Under the pieces are notes generated by a model. That model saw only the letters and a list, made by a program, of their open reading frames with translations, was not told where the DNA came from and did not search any database. The position numbers and the translations under genes were made by a program. Shown in pieces: positions 23,996 through 40,794 of a stretch of 64,000 bases of DNA (the stretch's first letter is position 1; every line of letters starts with the position of its first letter). Location: the NCBI GenBank assembly GCA_958296175.1, contig OY282448.1, positions 620,001 to 684,000 of the forward strand. Reading direction: 5' to 3'. Origin of the DNA: an uncultured Chloroflexota bacterium. Its GTDB lineage: Bacteria > Chloroflexota > UBA11872.

Positions 23996-24829
23996 ATGGA
24001 TGATGACAGGAATGCCGCAGGCGGCACGGGAAAGGCGCCGCCGGGCGTGAGCGCCGCGGCGCGTCAGCGCATCGACCTGGGCGAGATTGCGGGGCGCGGC
24101 GACATTGCGGCCATCGTGGGCGCCGGGGGCAAGACCTCCACCATGTTCGCGCTGGCCGCCGCGGCGGCGGCGCGCGGCCTGCGCGTGGTGACGACCAAGT
24201 CGACCACCATCCACCCGCCGTCGATGGCGCGGTCGCCGCGGCTGGTGGTCTCGCCTCCCGCACGCTGGCGCGGCGACCTGCCGGCGGCGCTGGCCGCGCA
24301 TCCCGTCGTCACCGTGGTCACGGCCGCACCCAGCGAGCGCAGGTTCGACGGCGTGCCCCCCGCCCTGGCGCCGGATCTCCTGCGCGCATCTGGCGCGGAC
24401 CTGTTGATCGTCGAGGCGGACGGCGCGCGCCGCCGTCTGCTCAAAGCGCCCGCCGCGCACGAACCCGCCATGCCCGCCGGCGCGTCGCTGGTAGTGCCGG
24501 TGGCCTCGCTGGCCGCCGTGGGCCGTCCGCTGGACGAGCGCCGCGTGCACCGCCCCGAGCTGGCAGCCGCGCTGCTGGGCGTCACGCGCGGCGCCGCGCT
24601 CACGGTTCGGCACGCCGCCCGCCTGCTGCTGGACGACCGCGGAGGTCTCAAACACGCCCCGCCCACCGCCCGCATCTGGCCCACGCTCACCGCCACCGGC
24701 CGCATCGACCCGGCAGCGCTGGCCGACCTCCGCACCGCCCTGGCCGCCCACCCCCAAGTCACCGGCTGGATCGAAGCAGACGCCCAGTGGACATTCACGG
24801 CCTGGCGCTGCGGCCTGGCCCAGACGTAG
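23996..24829 (+). CDS. yqeC: YqeC-like selenium-dependent hydroxylase accessory protein
   Basis: This protein of about 277 residues has a P-loop-like VGAGGKTSTMFALA and the phrases VTTKSTTIHPP and VEADGARRRLLKAPAAHEP. These are hallmarks of the YqeC family, linked to selenium-dependent molybdenum hydroxylase maturation. No such hydroxylase is visible here, but an AOR-family molybdopterin enzyme occurs at 59-61 kb. ATG at 23996 was preferred over 23945. The neighbouring PIN gene converges on its 3' end. Confidence 0.75.
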   Translation: MDDDRNAAGGTGKAPPGVSAAARQRIDLGEIAGRGDIAAIVGAGGKTSTMFALAAAAAARGLRVVTTKSTTIHPPSMARSPRLVVSPPARWRGDLPAALAAHPVVTVVTAAPSERRFDGVPPALAPDLLRASGADLLIVEADGARRRLLKAPAAHEPAMPAGASLVVPVASLAAVGRPLDERRVHRPELAAALLGVTRGAALTVRHAARLLLDDRGGLKHAPPTARIWPTLTATGRIDPAALADLRTALAAHPQVTGWIEADAQWTFTAWRCGLAQT

Positions 24830-24945
24830 GGTGGCATCCCTGTTCGGAGCCGACGGGTCGATCCTGCGTCCAGGAGGCCGACGCGGCCCTGGTAGAGGTG
24901 CGACGGCTCGGGTGACTCATTTGCTCCACACAGGCGCCCGCGGGT

Positions 24946-25481
24946 TCAGGAAAGCCACCCTTCGCGCACGACCAATGCCTCCAACGGAATCCACGGCACG
25001 CCTTCGGCTTCGCATACATCCGGAATTTTTGGTAGTTCACACGGCGAGACGAAAGTCGCTTCGGCATTTCCGAGGTCAAGACCGTCCACCCGTAGACGCT
25101 GGCGTAAGCGATGAGCCAGGGATCGGCGGGGTCCTTAGAGGAGTCATCCGGCACAAGCCTTGGGTGCGCGGTGTCGAGGCGCCGATATGCGGTCACCACG
25201 TCGGAGCTCAGCGGCTGAACGCGGAAGCCCTGGTGAGCCGTAAGCCTTTGCTCGCCTGCAGGGTCGAGCCTCTCCAGTTCCTGCCGGACGGCAGGGACCA
25301 GTTTGAGCCGCTGTGCTCGGACGAGCCCTTCGATACCTGCCCAAATCTTCTGCGCGTCGGCCGGCGGGAACTTCGGAGGCGGGCGGGGCGCGCCCGGCAC
25401 GACCACGTGCGAGTCGTTCAAGTCCATCACGCAGCAGGTGTCGATCGCGTAGACCGGCGGGGTGCTGCTCGACAAGATCAC
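24946..25481 (-). pseudogene. DUF4411-like PIN-domain protein with a frameshift
   Basis: The gene starts with GTG overlapping the upstream stop as GTGA. The N-terminal part reads YAIDTCCVMDLND (first PIN acidic residue), a Lys/Glu-rich middle, and DDSSKDPADPWLIAYASVYG with the later acidic pair. At the T5 run 25026-25030 the frame is lost. One extra base would restore a typical end IPDVCEAEGVPWIPLEAL and a stop at 24946. Without it the frame runs on to 24795 and into the yqeC-like gene. Family members are putative RNase toxins partnered with XRE-ImmA/IrrE proteins, as here. A sequencing error in the homopolymer is possible. Confidence 0.8.
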
Positions 25482-26674
25482 GCCGGCAGGGCGTGCGCAC
25501 GCTGACTTTGCGCCGCGAGCTCTGCAAACGTGTCCAGCGATTTGTGGTTCAGGTTGAGGATGGCGCTTGCATCCCGTGTATCGATAACCTCGGCCTGCAG
25601 GGCTTTCAGGAAGGCGTCAGCCACTTCCGGGCCGACTTCGTAGAACCGCGCTCGTCCTGGCGAGCGGCGGAACGGCCTGGCTGGACCAGGCGGCTGGGCA
25701 TGGGGCTCGATGTCCCTTGCCTGGATGAGATGCGCCATCCGATCGATGGCGTCGGTTACCCCGCATTGCTTGAGCCGGATACCGGCAGCCATGTAGCTGA
25801 CCCGAAACCGCGACGCAATCGAGCCGACGTGCGACAGATCCCACTGCCACGGCTTCAGGTCGGCGTGTCGGGACGCAACCACGGAGAGCAAGACGTCGCG
25901 AGGCATGAGCATGGCGGCCGCGACTCGGTTGCACCATTGTTCGACGGGCAGGTGCGGCCCGGACCGCACCTGCTGATCGGAAACCCCCGGACGGCGCAAC
26001 AGAAGATGCGCGTATTCGTGGAACAGGGTGAACGAGCGCGCCTGGTAGTTCTGCCGATCGGTGTTGACGATGATGACCGGGGGTCGGTCTGCGTCAAGCA
26101 GCGACACGCCGAGGCCCTCGCTGCGCGGCCATTTCTTCTGGAAAACCAGAATGCCGCGGCGTTCCAGCAGACTGCGGCAGGCTTGGTAGACCTGGGCCGC
26201 GGAGGCGTGCGACGGAAGGTCAGGATCGAGTCCCAGGGCTTTCCGCTCACGCTTCGCCGCCTGCTCGACGTCGTCGTCCAGGGTGCAGGTCGTGACGTCG
26301 GCGCGCGGGAATAGGCCGGGGTCCACCTCCAGCATGTCGGCCAGCGCCCGCTGAATTCGGCGGGCTTCGCGCACGACCAGCAGGACGTCCTCGGAGGCGG
26401 TGAGTCGTGCGCTTCCCACAGATCGGAAGTCTTGCGGAGGAGGCGCGGCGGCGGGCGGCGATGCGCGCAGCAATGCGGAGCGTGTTTGCTTGTAGGCCTG
26501 CGCGACCAGATCCAGGCGCCCGAGACTGATCGGGTTCTGGCCCGTTTCGAGCGCTGCAAGCTCGGACGGCGGCACGCCAATCGCGTCGGCGGCTTTCTGC
26601 AACGAGTAGCCGCGCAGGCCGCGCGCCCAGCGAAGGACGGGCCCGCTAATCTGAATCTGCTGTCGTGCCGCCAT
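25478..26674 (-). CDS. XRE-family HTH plus ImmA/IrrE metallopeptidase
   Basis: The 398-residue protein has an N-terminal helix-turn-helix (about residues 10-65; GYSLQKAADAIGVPPSELAALETG) and a C-terminal zinc peptidase domain with HEYAH at 219-223. Proteins of this COG2856-XRE architecture act as antitoxins or as stress-activated repressor-cleaving proteases. The adjacent, overlapping PIN gene makes a toxin-antitoxin-like pair. It probably autoregulates through the HTH. Confidence 0.88.
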   Translation of the reverse strand: MAARQQIQISGPVLRWARGLRGYSLQKAADAIGVPPSELAALETGQNPISLGRLDLVAQAYKQTRSALLRASPPAAAPPPQDFRSVGSARLTASEDVLLVVREARRIQRALADMLEVDPGLFPRADVTTCTLDDDVEQAAKRERKALGLDPDLPSHASAAQVYQACRSLLERRGILVFQKKWPRSEGLGVSLLDADRPPVIIVNTDRQNYQARSFTLFHEYAHLLLRRPGVSDQQVRSGPHLPVEQWCNRVAAAMLMPRDVLLSVVASRHADLKPWQWDLSHVGSIASRFRVSYMAAGIRLKQCGVTDAIDRMAHLIQARDIEPHAQPPGPARPFRRSPGRARFYEVGPEVADAFLKALQAEVIDTRDASAILNLNHKSLDTFAELAAQSQRAHALPA

Positions 26675-26908
26675 CGCAATACCCTGGTGCAGGCCGCAGT
26701 GCGGCCTTCTTCATCTGTTCTACCCGCAGATCGGGCACGCCCTTGCGCCGCTGCAACCGCGCAGCGCACCGCTCGAGGATACCTGCGCACGCCTGACGCC
26801 GCCTTCATCGAGACGAACCACGGGGGATCAACCTTGCGGCGGCATAGGCGAACGCGGCGGCGGTGCGTCAGAATGCGGGGCGGGTGTTGGGGGGAGGCTG
26901 GGGTGCTG

Positions 26909-28042
26909 ATGAGTGGTGACGTTGCGCGGCCTGATGCGGGCGGCGGGTCTGTGGTGATCGATGCGGATCGGTTGCTGGATACGTTTCTGGCGCTGTTGTC
27001 GGTGGACAGTTACTACGGCGACGAAGAGCGCGTGGTGGCCGTCATCAAGCCTCGCATGGAGGGGCTGGGTATCGTATGGCGCTCCGACCCGCATGGGAAT
27101 CTGATCGGCGCATGGCCGGGTCGGGAGCGCGACGGCGAGCCGATCGTGCTCAACGCGCACATGGACACGGTGCGCCCCACGCCCGGCATGGTTCCGGTGG
27201 TCAAGGACGACGGGGTGTATTCCGACGGGTCGTCGGTGCTGGGCGCGGACGACAAGGCGGGGGTGGCGGCGATTATGGAGGCGGTGCGCGCCGTGCACGC
27301 GTCTGGCCAGCCGCACGCGCCGATCGAGCTGGTGTTCACGGTGGGCGAGGACGTGGGGCACATTGGCTCCAAGGCCTTCGACCCGAGCGAGGTGCGCGGG
27401 CGCCGGTGTTTCGTGCTGGACGCCGGCGAGGCGGTTGGCGGCGTGGTGACGCGGGCGCCGGGTCAGCGGCGCTTCGAGTTCACCTTCCGCGGCACGGCGG
27501 CGCACGCGGGGGTGGAGCCCGAACTGGGGGTCAGCGCGATTGCCATGGCGGCCCGCGCCATCGACCGCATGCCGCTGGGGCGCGTGGACGCCATCACGAC
27601 GGCCAACGTGGGCACGATCCAGGGCGGACAGGCCTACAACATCGTGGCGCCGGAGGCGGTGGTCAACGTGGAATGCCGCAGCTTGTCCGAGGCGCGCCTG
27701 GAACGGCAGGCGGCCGACGTGGCGGGCGCCGCCCGCCAGGCGGCGGCGGACTTTGGCGGCGCGGTGGACATCGAGACGCACACGTTCTACACCGCCTACC
27801 AGCTGGACGACGACGATCCGGCGGTGCGTCTGGCGGACGCCGCCATCGAAGCCGCCGGCCTGGAGCCGCGGCACGTCAGCACGGGCGGCGGCAGCGACGC
27901 GCACGAGTTCAACGAGAAGGGCATCACCTCGGTGTGCCTGGGGGTGGGTTACGTGGACGTGCACACCGTGACGGAGTTCATGCCGCACGAGGCGCTGCGG
28001 GACGTTACCCGCGTTACGACGGAGCTGATCCGGCTGGCGTAG
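26909..28042 (+). CDS. M20-family metallopeptidase (PepT/ArgE/DapE-like)
   Basis: The protein of about 377 residues is a zinc aminopeptidase or deacylase. Metal ligands are seen in LNAHMDTVRP and GADDKAG, the catalytic Glu pair in VGEDVGHIG, and the late GGGSDAHEFNEKG. The dimerisation domain lies at about residues 185-290 (HAGVEPELGVSAI). The best match is the PepT-like branch (tripeptidase or YgeY-like). GTG at 26903 is an alternative start. It is followed by a 700-bp non-coding stretch. Confidence 0.87.
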   Translation: MSGDVARPDAGGGSVVIDADRLLDTFLALLSVDSYYGDEERVVAVIKPRMEGLGIVWRSDPHGNLIGAWPGRERDGEPIVLNAHMDTVRPTPGMVPVVKDDGVYSDGSSVLGADDKAGVAAIMEAVRAVHASGQPHAPIELVFTVGEDVGHIGSKAFDPSEVRGRRCFVLDAGEAVGGVVTRAPGQRRFEFTFRGTAAHAGVEPELGVSAIAMAARAIDRMPLGRVDAITTANVGTIQGGQAYNIVAPEAVVNVECRSLSEARLERQAADVAGAARQAAADFGGAVDIETHTFYTAYQLDDDDPAVRLADAAIEAAGLEPRHVSTGGGSDAHEFNEKGITSVCLGVGYVDVHTVTEFMPHEALRDVTRVTTELIRLA

Positions 28043-28312
28043 GGCGACCCCGCCGGGCGCGGCGAACCGTGTCGGTCTTTCTTCCTCGGTCCGACCAGTT
28101 CCCCGGCTTGCTGACCTTCCTCCATTTCTTGGCTAGGCCCACGTTGATTTACCAGTCTGTGATGTATTCTTGCAGTATCGCGGGGAAAGGAGGCATCTGC
28201 TAGTTAATCCAGCTGCACGCCTACAGCGTGTTGCCATCGTGGATTGACAGCAACTCCCGAATGCCCAACCGTTGAGGGCAAAGCAACAGAAGTGATTTGC
28301 TTTCTCAACTGA
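28043..28312. other. Non-coding stretch with an orphan ribosome-binding site
   Basis: After the M20 gene there is a promoter-like TTGATT...TATTCT (28144-28170, spacer short at 15 bp) and a strong AAAGGAGG near 28186-28193, but no start codon follows and an in-frame TAG comes at once. This may be the truncated front end of a lost gene. A hairpin lies at 28271-28309. Confidence 0.4.
28271..28309 (-). terminator. Hairpin directly downstream of the tRNA-like gene
   Basis: Two stacked stems, GTTGAG/CTCAAC and AAAGCAA/TTGCTTT, are separated by a 3-nt bulge and close a 10-nt loop. It begins 4 bp after the tRNA 3' end on the minus strand. It could end or process that transcript; there is no U tract. 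Confidence 0.45.
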
Positions 28313-28408
28313 TGGCGGAGGGCGGCGGACTCGAACCGCAACGGCTGTTGGAGCAGCCGACCTGGGATGTCTAAGGTCCCGGACGCGCGCCTGTCGTCTT
28401 CACCCTCC
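28313..28408 (-). tRNA. Unusual 96-nt class II tRNA, 8/4 acceptor/T-stem, anticodon UAG
   Basis: Read on the minus strand, the acceptor stem GGAGGGTG pairs with CGCCCTCC over 8 bp (one G-U). The T stem is only 4 bp (GCGG/CCGC) around the standard loop TTCGAGT. The D stem GACG/CGTC has a loop with GG. The anticodon stem GGGA/TCCC plus a C-A pair holds the loop CTTAGAC, giving anticodon UAG at 28371-28373. A 6-bp variable arm CGGCTG/CAGCCG follows. The discriminator is G and CCA is encoded. Bacterial tRNA-Leu has A at the discriminator, so Leu identity is doubtful; the long arm plus G fits SerRS. 8/4 tRNAs are known as rare allo-tRNAs. It could also be a decayed gene. Confidence 0.72.
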
Positions 28409-28418
28409 GCGTATAGCT

Positions 28419-28461
28419 GACCCCAGGCTTGGTTGTGGCAAGCCTGGGGTCGCTGCTTTTT
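28419..28461 (+). terminator. Strong hairpin with T run, intrinsic-terminator-like on plus strand
   Basis: A perfect 13-bp stem GACCCCAGGCTTG/CAAGCCTGGGGTC with a 7-nt loop is followed six bases later by TTTTT (28457-28461). On the plus strand it would stop transcription from the M20 gene. On the minus strand it sits 10 bp upstream of the tRNA-like gene and may instead be a processing signal. Confidence 0.6.
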
Positions 28462-28742
28462 CCACTCGCGAATCCGCTTGGTCGTGTGGGAGCCACCTAC
28501 GCAAGCCTGCCGGATAGAGCACCCCCTCGAAGAGTGTGACTCTGGCCGGAACAGGAGACACGCTGACTTAGGCGTTTGAGAGTAGCAGACCGACCACCAC
28601 ATTTGGACGTCATCCCAATCGTCCCCCTACATCTTGTAGGCCAAACGCTCGGGTTCCACTCAATCCCGCGTAGTTGCACTTCGCAGCTAGCACTATCGAC
28701 CATGCCCGTAGCCGTGGTCATGCGACGCGGCGTTTCAGTTCG
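28462..28742. other. Non-coding stretch downstream of cimA
   Basis: I find no coding frame, tRNA or repeat in this 280-bp stretch. The base composition is less GC-rich than that of neighbouring genes, and several short frames lack family features. It may be the cimA 3' region or part of an inserted element together with the tRNA-like gene. Confidence 0.4.
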
Positions 28743-30302
28743 CTACACAGGACCCGAGACGAGCAGGGCGTATTCGTAGCTGTCCATCAGGGCGAGCCAG
28801 GAGGCTTCGATGATGTTGGTGGAGCTGCCGACGGTGCCCCATTCGCGTTCGCCGTTGCTGGATTGGATCAGCACGCGCACGCCGGCGCCGGTGGCGGAGC
28901 CCGAGTCGAGGATGCGGACTTTGTAGTCCACCAGCTGGGTGCGGCGCAGTTCGGGGAAGAAGCGGTCGAGCGCCTTGCGCGCGGCCTGGTCCAGCGCGTT
29001 GACGGGGCCGTTGCCTTCGGCGGCGGTGTGGAACATTTCGTCGCCAACGCGGATTTTGGCCATGGCTTCGGACAGCATGTCGCGCCCGCCGCGCGTTTCG
29101 ACCAGCACGAGGAAGTCGACGAACTGGAAGGGGGCGCGGTAATCGCCGCGCCGGCGGCGCAGCAGCAGCTCGAACGAGGCTTCGGCGCCTTCGAACTGGA
29201 AGCCGCGGTCTTCCAAGTCTTTGACGGCGGCCAGCGCGGCGCCGACGTCGGCATCGTCGGCGGCCAGCCCGAGCTGGCGCACGCGGGCGGCGATGGTGCT
29301 GCGGCCGGCCAGTTCGGAGATCAGGATGCGGGGCTCGTTGCCCACCACGCCGGGGTCGACGTGCTGATAGGCGCGGGCGTGTTTGCTCATGCCGCTGCCG
29401 TGGTAGCCGGCCTTGTGCGCGAAGGCGCTGCGGCCCACGTAGGGCATGAACGGGTCGGGCGGCGTGTTGGCCAGCTCGCCGACGTAGCGCGAGAGGTCGG
29501 TGGTCTGGCGCAGCTGCGCCGGGGTGACGCAGGCGCAGCCGAGTTTGAGCTGCAGCGTGGGGATGAGGGTGGTGAGGTTGGCGTTGCCGCAGCGTTCGCC
29601 AAACCCGTTGATGGTGCCTTGCACTTGCCGGGCGCCGGCCGCCACGGCGGCGATGGTGTTGGCGGCGGCCAGGTCGGCGTCGTTGTGGGTGTGCACGCCG
29701 AGCGGCGCGTCCGTCCAGCCGGCGGCGGCGCGGGTGGCGGCGCCAACCTGGTCGGGCAGCGCGCCGCCGTTGGTGTCACAAAGCACGATCCAGTCGGCGC
29801 CGGCCTCGCTGGCGGCTTCCACGCAGGCGCGCGTGTAGGCCGCGTCGTCCTGGAAGCCGTCGTAGAAGTGCTCGGCGTCTACGAGCACTTCGCGCCCGGC
29901 GCGCTTCAGGTGCGCCACGGTGTCGCGAATCATGGCCAGGTTTTCGTCCGTGGTGGTTTCGAGCACCGTCTCGGCCTGAAAGCGCGAGAACTTGGCCACG
30001 ATGGTGACGGCTGGCGTCCGGCAGTCCAGCAAGGCGGCCACCGTGGGGTCGTCGTCCACCCTGCGGCCCTTGTAGCGCGTGGCGCCGAAGGCCGTGATGC
30101 GGGCCTGGCGCCAGGACATTTTGGCCGCGCGCTGGAAAAACTCGCGGTCTTTGGGATTGGAGCCGGGGAAGCCGCCTTCGATGTAGGCCATGCCGTAGGC
30201 GTCCAGCCGTTCGGCGATGCGCAGCTTGTCCTCGGTCGAGAACGAAACGCCTTCGGTCTGCGCGCCGTCGCGCAGCGTGGTGTCGTAAAGCGAGAGGTGC
30301 AT
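28743..30302 (-). CDS. cimA: (R)-citramalate synthase
   Basis: This 519-residue enzyme of the DRE-TIM metallolyase family condenses pyruvate and acetyl-CoA to (R)-citramalate, giving a threonine-independent route to isoleucine. Marks are LYDTTLRDGAQTEG at the N-terminus, the metal-binding HTHNDADLA, the NGFGERCGNANL segment and the SAFAHKAGYHGSG signature. The C-terminal LeuA-type regulatory domain (about 370-519) is present for feedback control. The length and the GAQ variant of the motif separate it from leuA in the same operon, of which it is the last gene. Confidence 0.93.
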   Translation of the reverse strand: MHLSLYDTTLRDGAQTEGVSFSTEDKLRIAERLDAYGMAYIEGGFPGSNPKDREFFQRAAKMSWRQARITAFGATRYKGRRVDDDPTVAALLDCRTPAVTIVAKFSRFQAETVLETTTDENLAMIRDTVAHLKRAGREVLVDAEHFYDGFQDDAAYTRACVEAASEAGADWIVLCDTNGGALPDQVGAATRAAAGWTDAPLGVHTHNDADLAAANTIAAVAAGARQVQGTINGFGERCGNANLTTLIPTLQLKLGCACVTPAQLRQTTDLSRYVGELANTPPDPFMPYVGRSAFAHKAGYHGSGMSKHARAYQHVDPGVVGNEPRILISELAGRSTIAARVRQLGLAADDADVGAALAAVKDLEDRGFQFEGAEASFELLLRRRRGDYRAPFQFVDFLVLVETRGGRDMLSEAMAKIRVGDEMFHTAAEGNGPVNALDQAARKALDRFFPELRRTQLVDYKVRILDSGSATGAGVRVLIQSSNGEREWGTVGSSTNIIEASWLALMDSYEYALLVSGPV

Positions 30303-40057: not shown

Positions 40058-40794
40058 CGAACCTGGCGTGCTGGGCCGTGCCGGTGCGCGGCGGGTTCGT
40101 GCTGCGCGCCGACCGCTCCGCGGCGGCGACCATGCGGGCGGCCGCGGCGCGCGCGCCGCGCCATTGGGGCTGGCGCATTGCGCTGCTGCAGCCGCAGAGC
40201 CAGCTGTTCTCGGCGCCGCTGGCCGCGCGCGCCGCGGTGCTGGCCATGGACTACGCGCGGCACGACCAGGGGCGGCCTGTTCGTCCCCGCGTGCGCTTCC
40301 GCCGCCGCCGCGCGGGGCTGTGGACGAGCGCGGCGTTGGGGCTGGGTCTGGTCATCGCTTCCGGCGGCCACTGGGCGCCGGCGCTGGCGGGGGTCTGGCT
40401 GCTGGCGGGGCGCCGCTGGCTGCGCTGGCTCTTCGGCCTGGACGCCCCGCTGCCGCTGGCGCCGCTGGCGCCGGCGCAGGAACCCGTCGTGACCTCGGAC
40501 GCCCACGCCGGGCTGGCGCGCATTGCGCAGCGCATGCACGGCATCGAGGACGATGCCGCCGCCTATGCCCTGGGCGCTGCGCAGGCGCGCGCGCAGGGGC
40601 TGGACGACGTTGCCGAGGTCTACGCCGCGCTGGCCGCCGGCGCGCATCCGCCGCGCCTGCCGCCGCACGTGGGCGTGTGGGTGGCCCGCGACGCCGAACA
40701 CGACCCGGGGGGTCCCGCCCTGCCGTCGCCCACGGCGCCCGCGCCGCAGCAGCCGCAGCAGCCGGCCGGCCGGCCCGGAGCGCCGCTCCCGTGA
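40054..40794 (+). CDS. Unknown membrane protein, cluster gene 2
   Basis: The 246-residue protein has a short N-terminal domain (TNLACWAVPVRGGFVLRADR) and a membrane hairpin at about residues 90-125 (SAALGLGLVIASGG then ALAGVWLLAGRRWLRWL). A helical region (YALGAAQARAQG) follows, and the tail is Pro/Gln-rich. It overlaps both neighbours by 4 bp. No family is recognised. The topology suggests a partner of cluster gene 1. Confidence 0.6.
   Translation: MTNLACWAVPVRGGFVLRADRSAAATMRAAAARAPRHWGWRIALLQPQSQLFSAPLAARAAVLAMDYARHDQGRPVRPRVRFRRRRAGLWTSAALGLGLVIASGGHWAPALAGVWLLAGRRWLRWLFGLDAPLPLAPLAPAQEPVVTSDAHAGLARIAQRMHGIEDDAAAYALGAAQARAQGLDDVAEVYAALAAGAHPPRLPPHVGVWVARDAEHDPGGPALPSPTAPAPQQPQQPAGRPGAPLP

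Follow-up and report, generated by a model that had tools for sequence, protein, structure and literature searches.

A probable serine-type 8/4 allo-tRNA gene in a Chloroflexota genome, with three relatives carried inside IS1595 elements

Published allo-tRNAs with 8/4 and 9/3 branches insert serine in Escherichia coli irrespective of their anticodon (review PMC7609411, through whose summary the work of Mukai et al., 2017 is cited here). A transposon-related neighbour was noted earlier beside one of them, an allo-tRNA(UAU) pseudogene of Edaphobacter (PMC7609411). Here, we describe a gene of this kind from an uncultured Chloroflexota bacterium (lineage UBA11872; assembly GCA_958296175.1). It lies in a stretch of 64,000 nucleotides of contig OY282448.1 (positions 620,001 to 684,000, forward strand), hereafter called the window. 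The gene is a real, intact 8/4 tRNA, neither a tRNA-Sec nor a tRNA-Leu, and three of its relatives lie inside IS1595 elements, a link to this transposon family that was not visible to the reader who first annotated the window from its letters.

As far as the review describes the published 8/4 allo-tRNAs, the window tRNA and its relatives share with them a 12-bp branch split 8/4, a long variable arm and serine identity elements, as well as non-serine anticodons that vary among copies. Unlike those, which the review places in Clostridia, Proteobacteria and Acidobacteria and not in Chloroflexota, the present family comes from the last-named phylum; and unlike the Edaphobacter case, the relatives are intact genes in delimited IS1595 elements beside a methyltransferase. 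The 9/3 allo-tRNAs have a long D stem, whereas that of the window tRNA is short. Bacterial tRNA-Sec likewise has an 8-bp acceptor, a long variable arm and G73; however, it is of the 8/5 type, while the window tRNA is 8/4 with a short D stem and a sense anticodon. The selC* tRNA-Cys resembles it in the 8/4-like branch and long variable arm, and its U73 recurs in one relative (the G021b copy), but the window copy differs in its G73 and its leucine anticodon. The gene and its parts are as follows:

28313..28408, minus strand: 8/4 allo-tRNA gene (ARAGORN, minimum free energy fold, covariance models R1 and R2, pair counts)
28371..28373, minus strand: anticodon UAG, for CUA codons, in the loop CUUAGAC (ARAGORN anticodon position 36; alignment of the five copies)
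28342..28359, minus strand: variable arm CGGCTG-CTCCAA-CAGCCG, 6 bp (fold; in relatives, both partners differ at two of its pairs)

Read 5' to 3' on the minus strand (28408-28313), the sequence from the acceptor to the D arm is GGAGGGTG AA GACG ACAGGCGCG CGTC C, followed by the anticodon and variable arms (GGGAC CTTAGAC ATCCC AGGT CGGCTG CTCCAA CAGCCG TT) and, from the T arm to the 3' end, by GCGG TTCGAGT CCGC CGCCCTCC G CCA. The acceptor stem is GGAGGGTG/CGCCCTCC, with discriminator G73 and an encoded CCA. The minimum free energy structure (ViennaRNA) is an 8/4 cloverleaf with a long variable arm, in which the acceptor, D, anticodon, variable and T stems have 8, 4, 4, 6, and 4 bp, respectively, and the D loop has 9 nt. 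The sequence-only reading had described this fold, the T loop, the 6-bp variable arm, G73 and CCA accurately; it omitted a C.A mismatch, the last pair of the anticodon stem at the base of the loop, and a 5' linker that reads AA and not U8-N9. Folding energy was dropped as a proof of the tRNA, as it is unexceptional (z = -0.93), and the case therefore stands on the tRNA layout and on the relatives.

ARAGORN calls the gene tRNA-Leu(tag) at 28313-28408(-), in agreement with the UAG anticodon read earlier. The body is not that of a leucine tRNA: it has neither A73 nor a 7/5 branch, and it is not among the 46 tRNAs that the Rfam tRNA model (RF00005) finds in this genome at E<=0.001. A canonical 7/5 leucine model with A73, named beforehand as the competing description, fails on the discriminator and on the fifth T-stem pair, which would be U.C or U.U in all five known sequences. 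The tRNA-Sec model (RF01852), whose use had been suggested together with that of RF00005, gives a weak 35.9 bits, below its cut-off of 47 and short of the 72 bits scored by the true tRNA-Sec of the same genome; a 13-bp branch and a long D stem are lacking as well. On the other hand, the GGAG...CTCC acceptor end also occurs in the genome's own tRNA-Ser genes and, with the long variable arm and G73, bears out the proposal of a pattern recognized by seryl-tRNA synthetase (SerRS). The 12-bp 8/4 branch, these serine-type elements and a non-serine anticodon that varies across the family place the gene in the allo-tRNA class, as had been suggested.

The 8/4 tRNA is present in 3 of 19 genomes of its family, two copies having been found besides that of the window, and a covariance model recovered two further copies in another family of the same order. 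All five copies thus belong to one Chloroflexota order. A second covariance model (R2) gave no additional copies in 400 genomes of the phylum, and none were found in phage records, plasmid records or viral contigs. Matches of ~42-52 bits to model R1 in the phylum proved to be true tRNA-Sec, and weak matches to R2 in the class were canonical His, Ser and Phe tRNAs. In an Infernal alignment of the five copies, 95.5% of cells are paired, nine pairs are changed on both sides and 0 of 500 shuffles reach the observed values, figures to be taken cautiously as they come from five sequences on a model-fitted alignment. The acceptor, D, variable and T stems are fully (100%) paired in all five sequences. 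In the G021b copy, acceptor pair 8 is A-U in place of G-C, while the alternative fifth T-stem pair never forms, which supports an acceptor of eight pairs over one of seven. The anticodons, in contrast, are all different (UAG, GAU, UGG, CAG, and GUA): the relatives combine one and the same body with triplets for Ile, Pro, Leu and Tyr. U33 and a purine at position 37 are retained in the loops. As the anticodon is not conserved in the family, no interpretation should be built on the UAG of the window copy.

Three relatives are found in IS1595 elements, at G003:C2 (L097), G021:C176 (L098), and G021:C181 (L099). Each element encodes an IS1595-type transposase (PF12762 plus a zinc ribbon) and an N6/N4 DNA methyltransferase, the latter accompanied by an HNH domain in two of the three. 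The tRNA follows 41-72 bp downstream of the methyltransferase on the same strand, and terminal inverted repeats bracket all three genes, so that the tRNA is a passenger between the repeats. An 8-bp target duplication, TTGTCCTT, flanks L099; none was seen at L097 or L098. In L097 (1450-2671) the methyltransferase is spread over two reading frames that overlap, and it may therefore be broken. Plasmid relatives of the methyltransferase were not found next to IS1595. These elements resemble known IS1595 elements with passengers in their DDE_Tnp_IS1595 and zinc ribbon domains, terminal inverted repeats and methyltransferase passengers, and many of the relatives' elements have 8-bp target duplications; they differ in the tRNA cargo, which none of the papers returned by the literature searches describes, and the window copy itself lies outside any such element. 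From the three cases, we infer that the 8/4 tRNA family spreads by IS1595 transposons.

Of the 41 class genomes, 26 carry IS1595 transposases. Within 38 elements with recognizable ends (104 kb), there are 10 tRNA genes (nine called by ARAGORN, that of L098 by covariance model), as opposed to 0 in 160 kb of flanks of the same loci. Genome tRNA density predicts ~1.6 inside the elements, and the chance of all ten lying inside is ~9e-5; these statistics are rough guides only, because some of the elements are related or identical. In nine of the 10 passengers the anticodon region is unusual or mismatched; examples are serine bodies reading UUG or AUA. The passengers of L154 (CAA) and L164 (UAU) are nearest to tRNA-Ser genes, with a 7/5 branch and well-paired anticodon stems; that of L142 (UGC) is nearest to tRNA-Cys, and that of L144 (GCU) has Cys-like features including U73, its nearest match being weak. 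Others have anticodon loops of 6 or 8 nt. L154 (974-4542) and L164 (672-4713) are versions of one IS1595 element with a different tRNA body and anticodon in the same slot: the DNA on either side of the tRNA is for the most part 82-99% identical, but the tRNA block has diverged much further, and even so both tRNAs fold. Cassette exchange or rapid diversification are possible origins of this difference.

L142 (1905-4868) and L137 (650-3233) each hold two tRNA genes, one by each terminal repeat, some with 6- or 8-nt anticodon loops like those of frameshift suppressors. Small proteins are encoded beside the tRNA in L144 (4760-5215, HARE-HTH), L228 (3030-3458, a HARE-HTH match below cut-off), and L096 (7517-7756, no Pfam match). 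L228, from a Chloroflexota genome outside the class, has one such tRNA within its repeats. Odd tRNAs also lie near the transposase in the viral-contig IS1595 loci L267 (5483-5577), L261 (373-581), and L306 (5577-5660); among them are a serine-like body with UCU, 6- and 8-nt loops, and a leucine-like body with UGU. The serine-like body is that of L267 and is inside the repeats, with target duplication AATTATTA. Of the 55 IS1595 elements in the viral-contig set, one alone held a tRNA; tRNA carriage is therefore not general. The idea that the passengers serve to recode the transposase genes of their elements was considered and rejected, as the cognate codons stand where relatives have the standard residue and show no excess in serine or cysteine columns.

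The host is a single-contig 3.0-Mb genome with a full canonical tRNA set, including tRNA-Leu(UAG), four tRNA-Ser and a tRNA-Sec (G000:C1:976933-977026), which makes the window tRNA surplus. With a SelA gene as well (G000:C1 1978160-1979491, 527 bits), the host probably makes selenocysteine. CUA is rare, as the earlier reading had supposed (0.87 per 1000 codons), and low-level misreading would therefore be tolerated. General insertion of serine at CUA, an extension of what was raised there, is not supported: canonical tRNA-Leu(UAG) is present, and both CUA codons of the neighbouring leuB fall at positions with leucine in 12 of 12 aligned relatives. Judged by these codons, CUA still stands for leucine in this host. 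In three other genes compared with PDB entries, the CUA codons fall ahead of the aligned part. A further ARAGORN call in the window, tRNA-Pro(ggg) at 40136-40230 (95 nt, 81% GC, poor arms), is likely a false positive.

The gene lies in a short insert between two converging genes:

28043..28742, no strand: ~700-bp low-GC insert with the tRNA, between converging genes (GC 0.53-0.63 vs. 0.71 in the window; synteny)
28743..30302, minus strand: upstream gene, LeuA/citramalate-synthase-like enzyme, HMGL-like plus LeuA_dimer (Pfam; in 19 of 19 family genomes)
26897..28042, plus strand: downstream gene, M20/M42-type peptidase (Pfam; adjoins the same LeuA-like enzyme in same-genus relatives)
28419..28451, no strand: perfect 13-bp inverted repeat whose near end is ~10 bp from the tRNA, on its upstream side; resembles a terminator on the plus strand

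Three same-genus genomes have the LeuA-like and peptidase genes side by side, separated by 65-68 bp. The tRNA is thus missing at the orthologous site, which identifies the window copy as a local insertion. In most same-genus relatives, the junction holds an unrelated, fast-evolving, coiled-coil-like reading frame (L073, L075, L077-L080, L082, L083), and it may be a site that favours insertions. Beyond the tRNA itself, nothing similar to the insert was found in the 41 class genomes; homology ends sharply at the ends of the tRNA gene, and the surroundings have diverged past recognition. Near the insert, at 24795-26674, a DUF4411 protein adjoins a protein with helix-turn-helix (HTH) and M78 peptidase domains, a probable toxin-antitoxin pair.

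We consider it probable that the window gene is an intact serine-type allo-tRNA whose family has spread in IS1595 elements and whose window copy has been stranded. Accounting for the locus in this way, a surplus tRNA body made for charging by SerRS would bear an anticodon, UAG, for a leucine codon and mismatched to that identity. The small family, found in a single Chloroflexota order, would ride IS1595 transposons behind a DNA methyltransferase, and the window copy would be an orphan left in, or brought into, the 700-bp insert. From its identity elements, SerRS probably charges the tRNA; once charged, by analogy with the allo-tRNAs studied in E. coli, it might insert serine at rare CUA codons as a low-level, tolerated mistranslation, a step that we put forward tentatively. 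Several observations weigh against this explanation. The window's genome has no match to the IS1595 transposase (PF12762), and around the window copy there is no relic of a terminal repeat or methyltransferase, nor was a promoter-like site found for the tRNA. The G006 copy likewise has no remnant of transposase, terminal repeat or methyltransferase nearby, the long tblastx list there being high-GC noise. Without transposon traces at these two copies, their transposon origin is one that we infer. The anticodon stem is paired in 76% of cells across the five sequences, the G006 copy has lost one acceptor base, and both argue against efficient decoding; G73 is found in four of the five copies, with U73 in G021b. 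The data are all genome sequences, mostly from draft assemblies.

Selection maintains the body but leaves the anticodon arm free, which makes a role that needs a charged or folded tRNA and no set codon a live alternative. As a regulator, decoy or aminoacyl donor of this sort, the tRNA-like molecule would be a folded, perhaps serylated RNA acting off the ribosome; it might, for instance, titrate an enzyme or withstand a toxin that cuts tRNAs, and its anticodon would drift freely. We regard this as rather unlikely, although the fully paired acceptor, D, variable and T arms beside a weakened anticodon stem, a different triplet in every copy, and cognate codons that sit at ordinary positions of the element transposases and not at conserved Ser/Cys sites all agree with it. 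It accounts poorly for the retained U33 and purine 37 and for the well-paired anticodon stems of the 7/5 passengers L154 and L164, and the copies do not all share a partner protein. Decay, also mentioned in the sequence-only reading, would make the gene a functionless fossil of a tRNA-Ser or of a transposon passenger. The sporadic distribution, the empty orthologous site, the C.A mismatch and the base loss in G006 would suit such a fossil; yet simple decay is improbable for a body that covaries across relatives with nine two-sided changes that the shuffles do not reproduce, and whose homology stops sharply at the gene ends amid unrecognizable surroundings. An additional tRNA-Sec that bears a sense anticodon and, once serylated, is converted by SelA to Sec-tRNA is very improbable: the host does encode SelA and a true tRNA-Sec, and SelA can turn Ser-charged allo-tRNAs into Sec carriers in E. 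coli (PMC9902344), but the branch has 12 bp and not 13, the model score is half that of the real tRNA-Sec, and SelA recognizes a long D stem (PMC7590224) where the window tRNA has 4 bp and a 9-nt loop. Least credible is a working extra leucine tRNA, to which the UAG anticodon and the adjoining branched-chain amino-acid genes would point; G73, the 8/4 branch, the serine-type variable arm, the canonical tRNA-Leu(UAG), the relatives' other triplets and the empty site in related genomes speak against it.

Returning to a stranded serine-type allo-tRNA, a broader proposal may be made with less assurance. It is possible, though we would not yet favour it, that IS1595 transposons recurrently carry anticodon-swapped tRNAs, mostly with serine or cysteine bodies, as working passengers; these would be mobile missense suppressors, passing from one bacterium to another with anticodons that diversify on the way, and could be left behind in chromosomes as the orphan allo-tRNAs known from metagenome surveys. 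Allo-tRNAs as a kind are already known, whereas their recurrent carriage by transposons appears to be new: a full-text literature search, with most subscription papers outside its reach, turned up no description of an IS1595 element with a tRNA passenger. The origin and the natural role of allo-tRNAs are open questions in the field. Both their patchy distribution and the mixture of their anticodons would be explained by a tie to one defined transposon family, which also opens these two features to experiment. For genetic code engineering, natural 8/4 bodies with such a variety of anticodons offer useful starting material. If it is true that transposons spread codon-misreading tRNAs, mistranslation would be a horizontally transferable trait.
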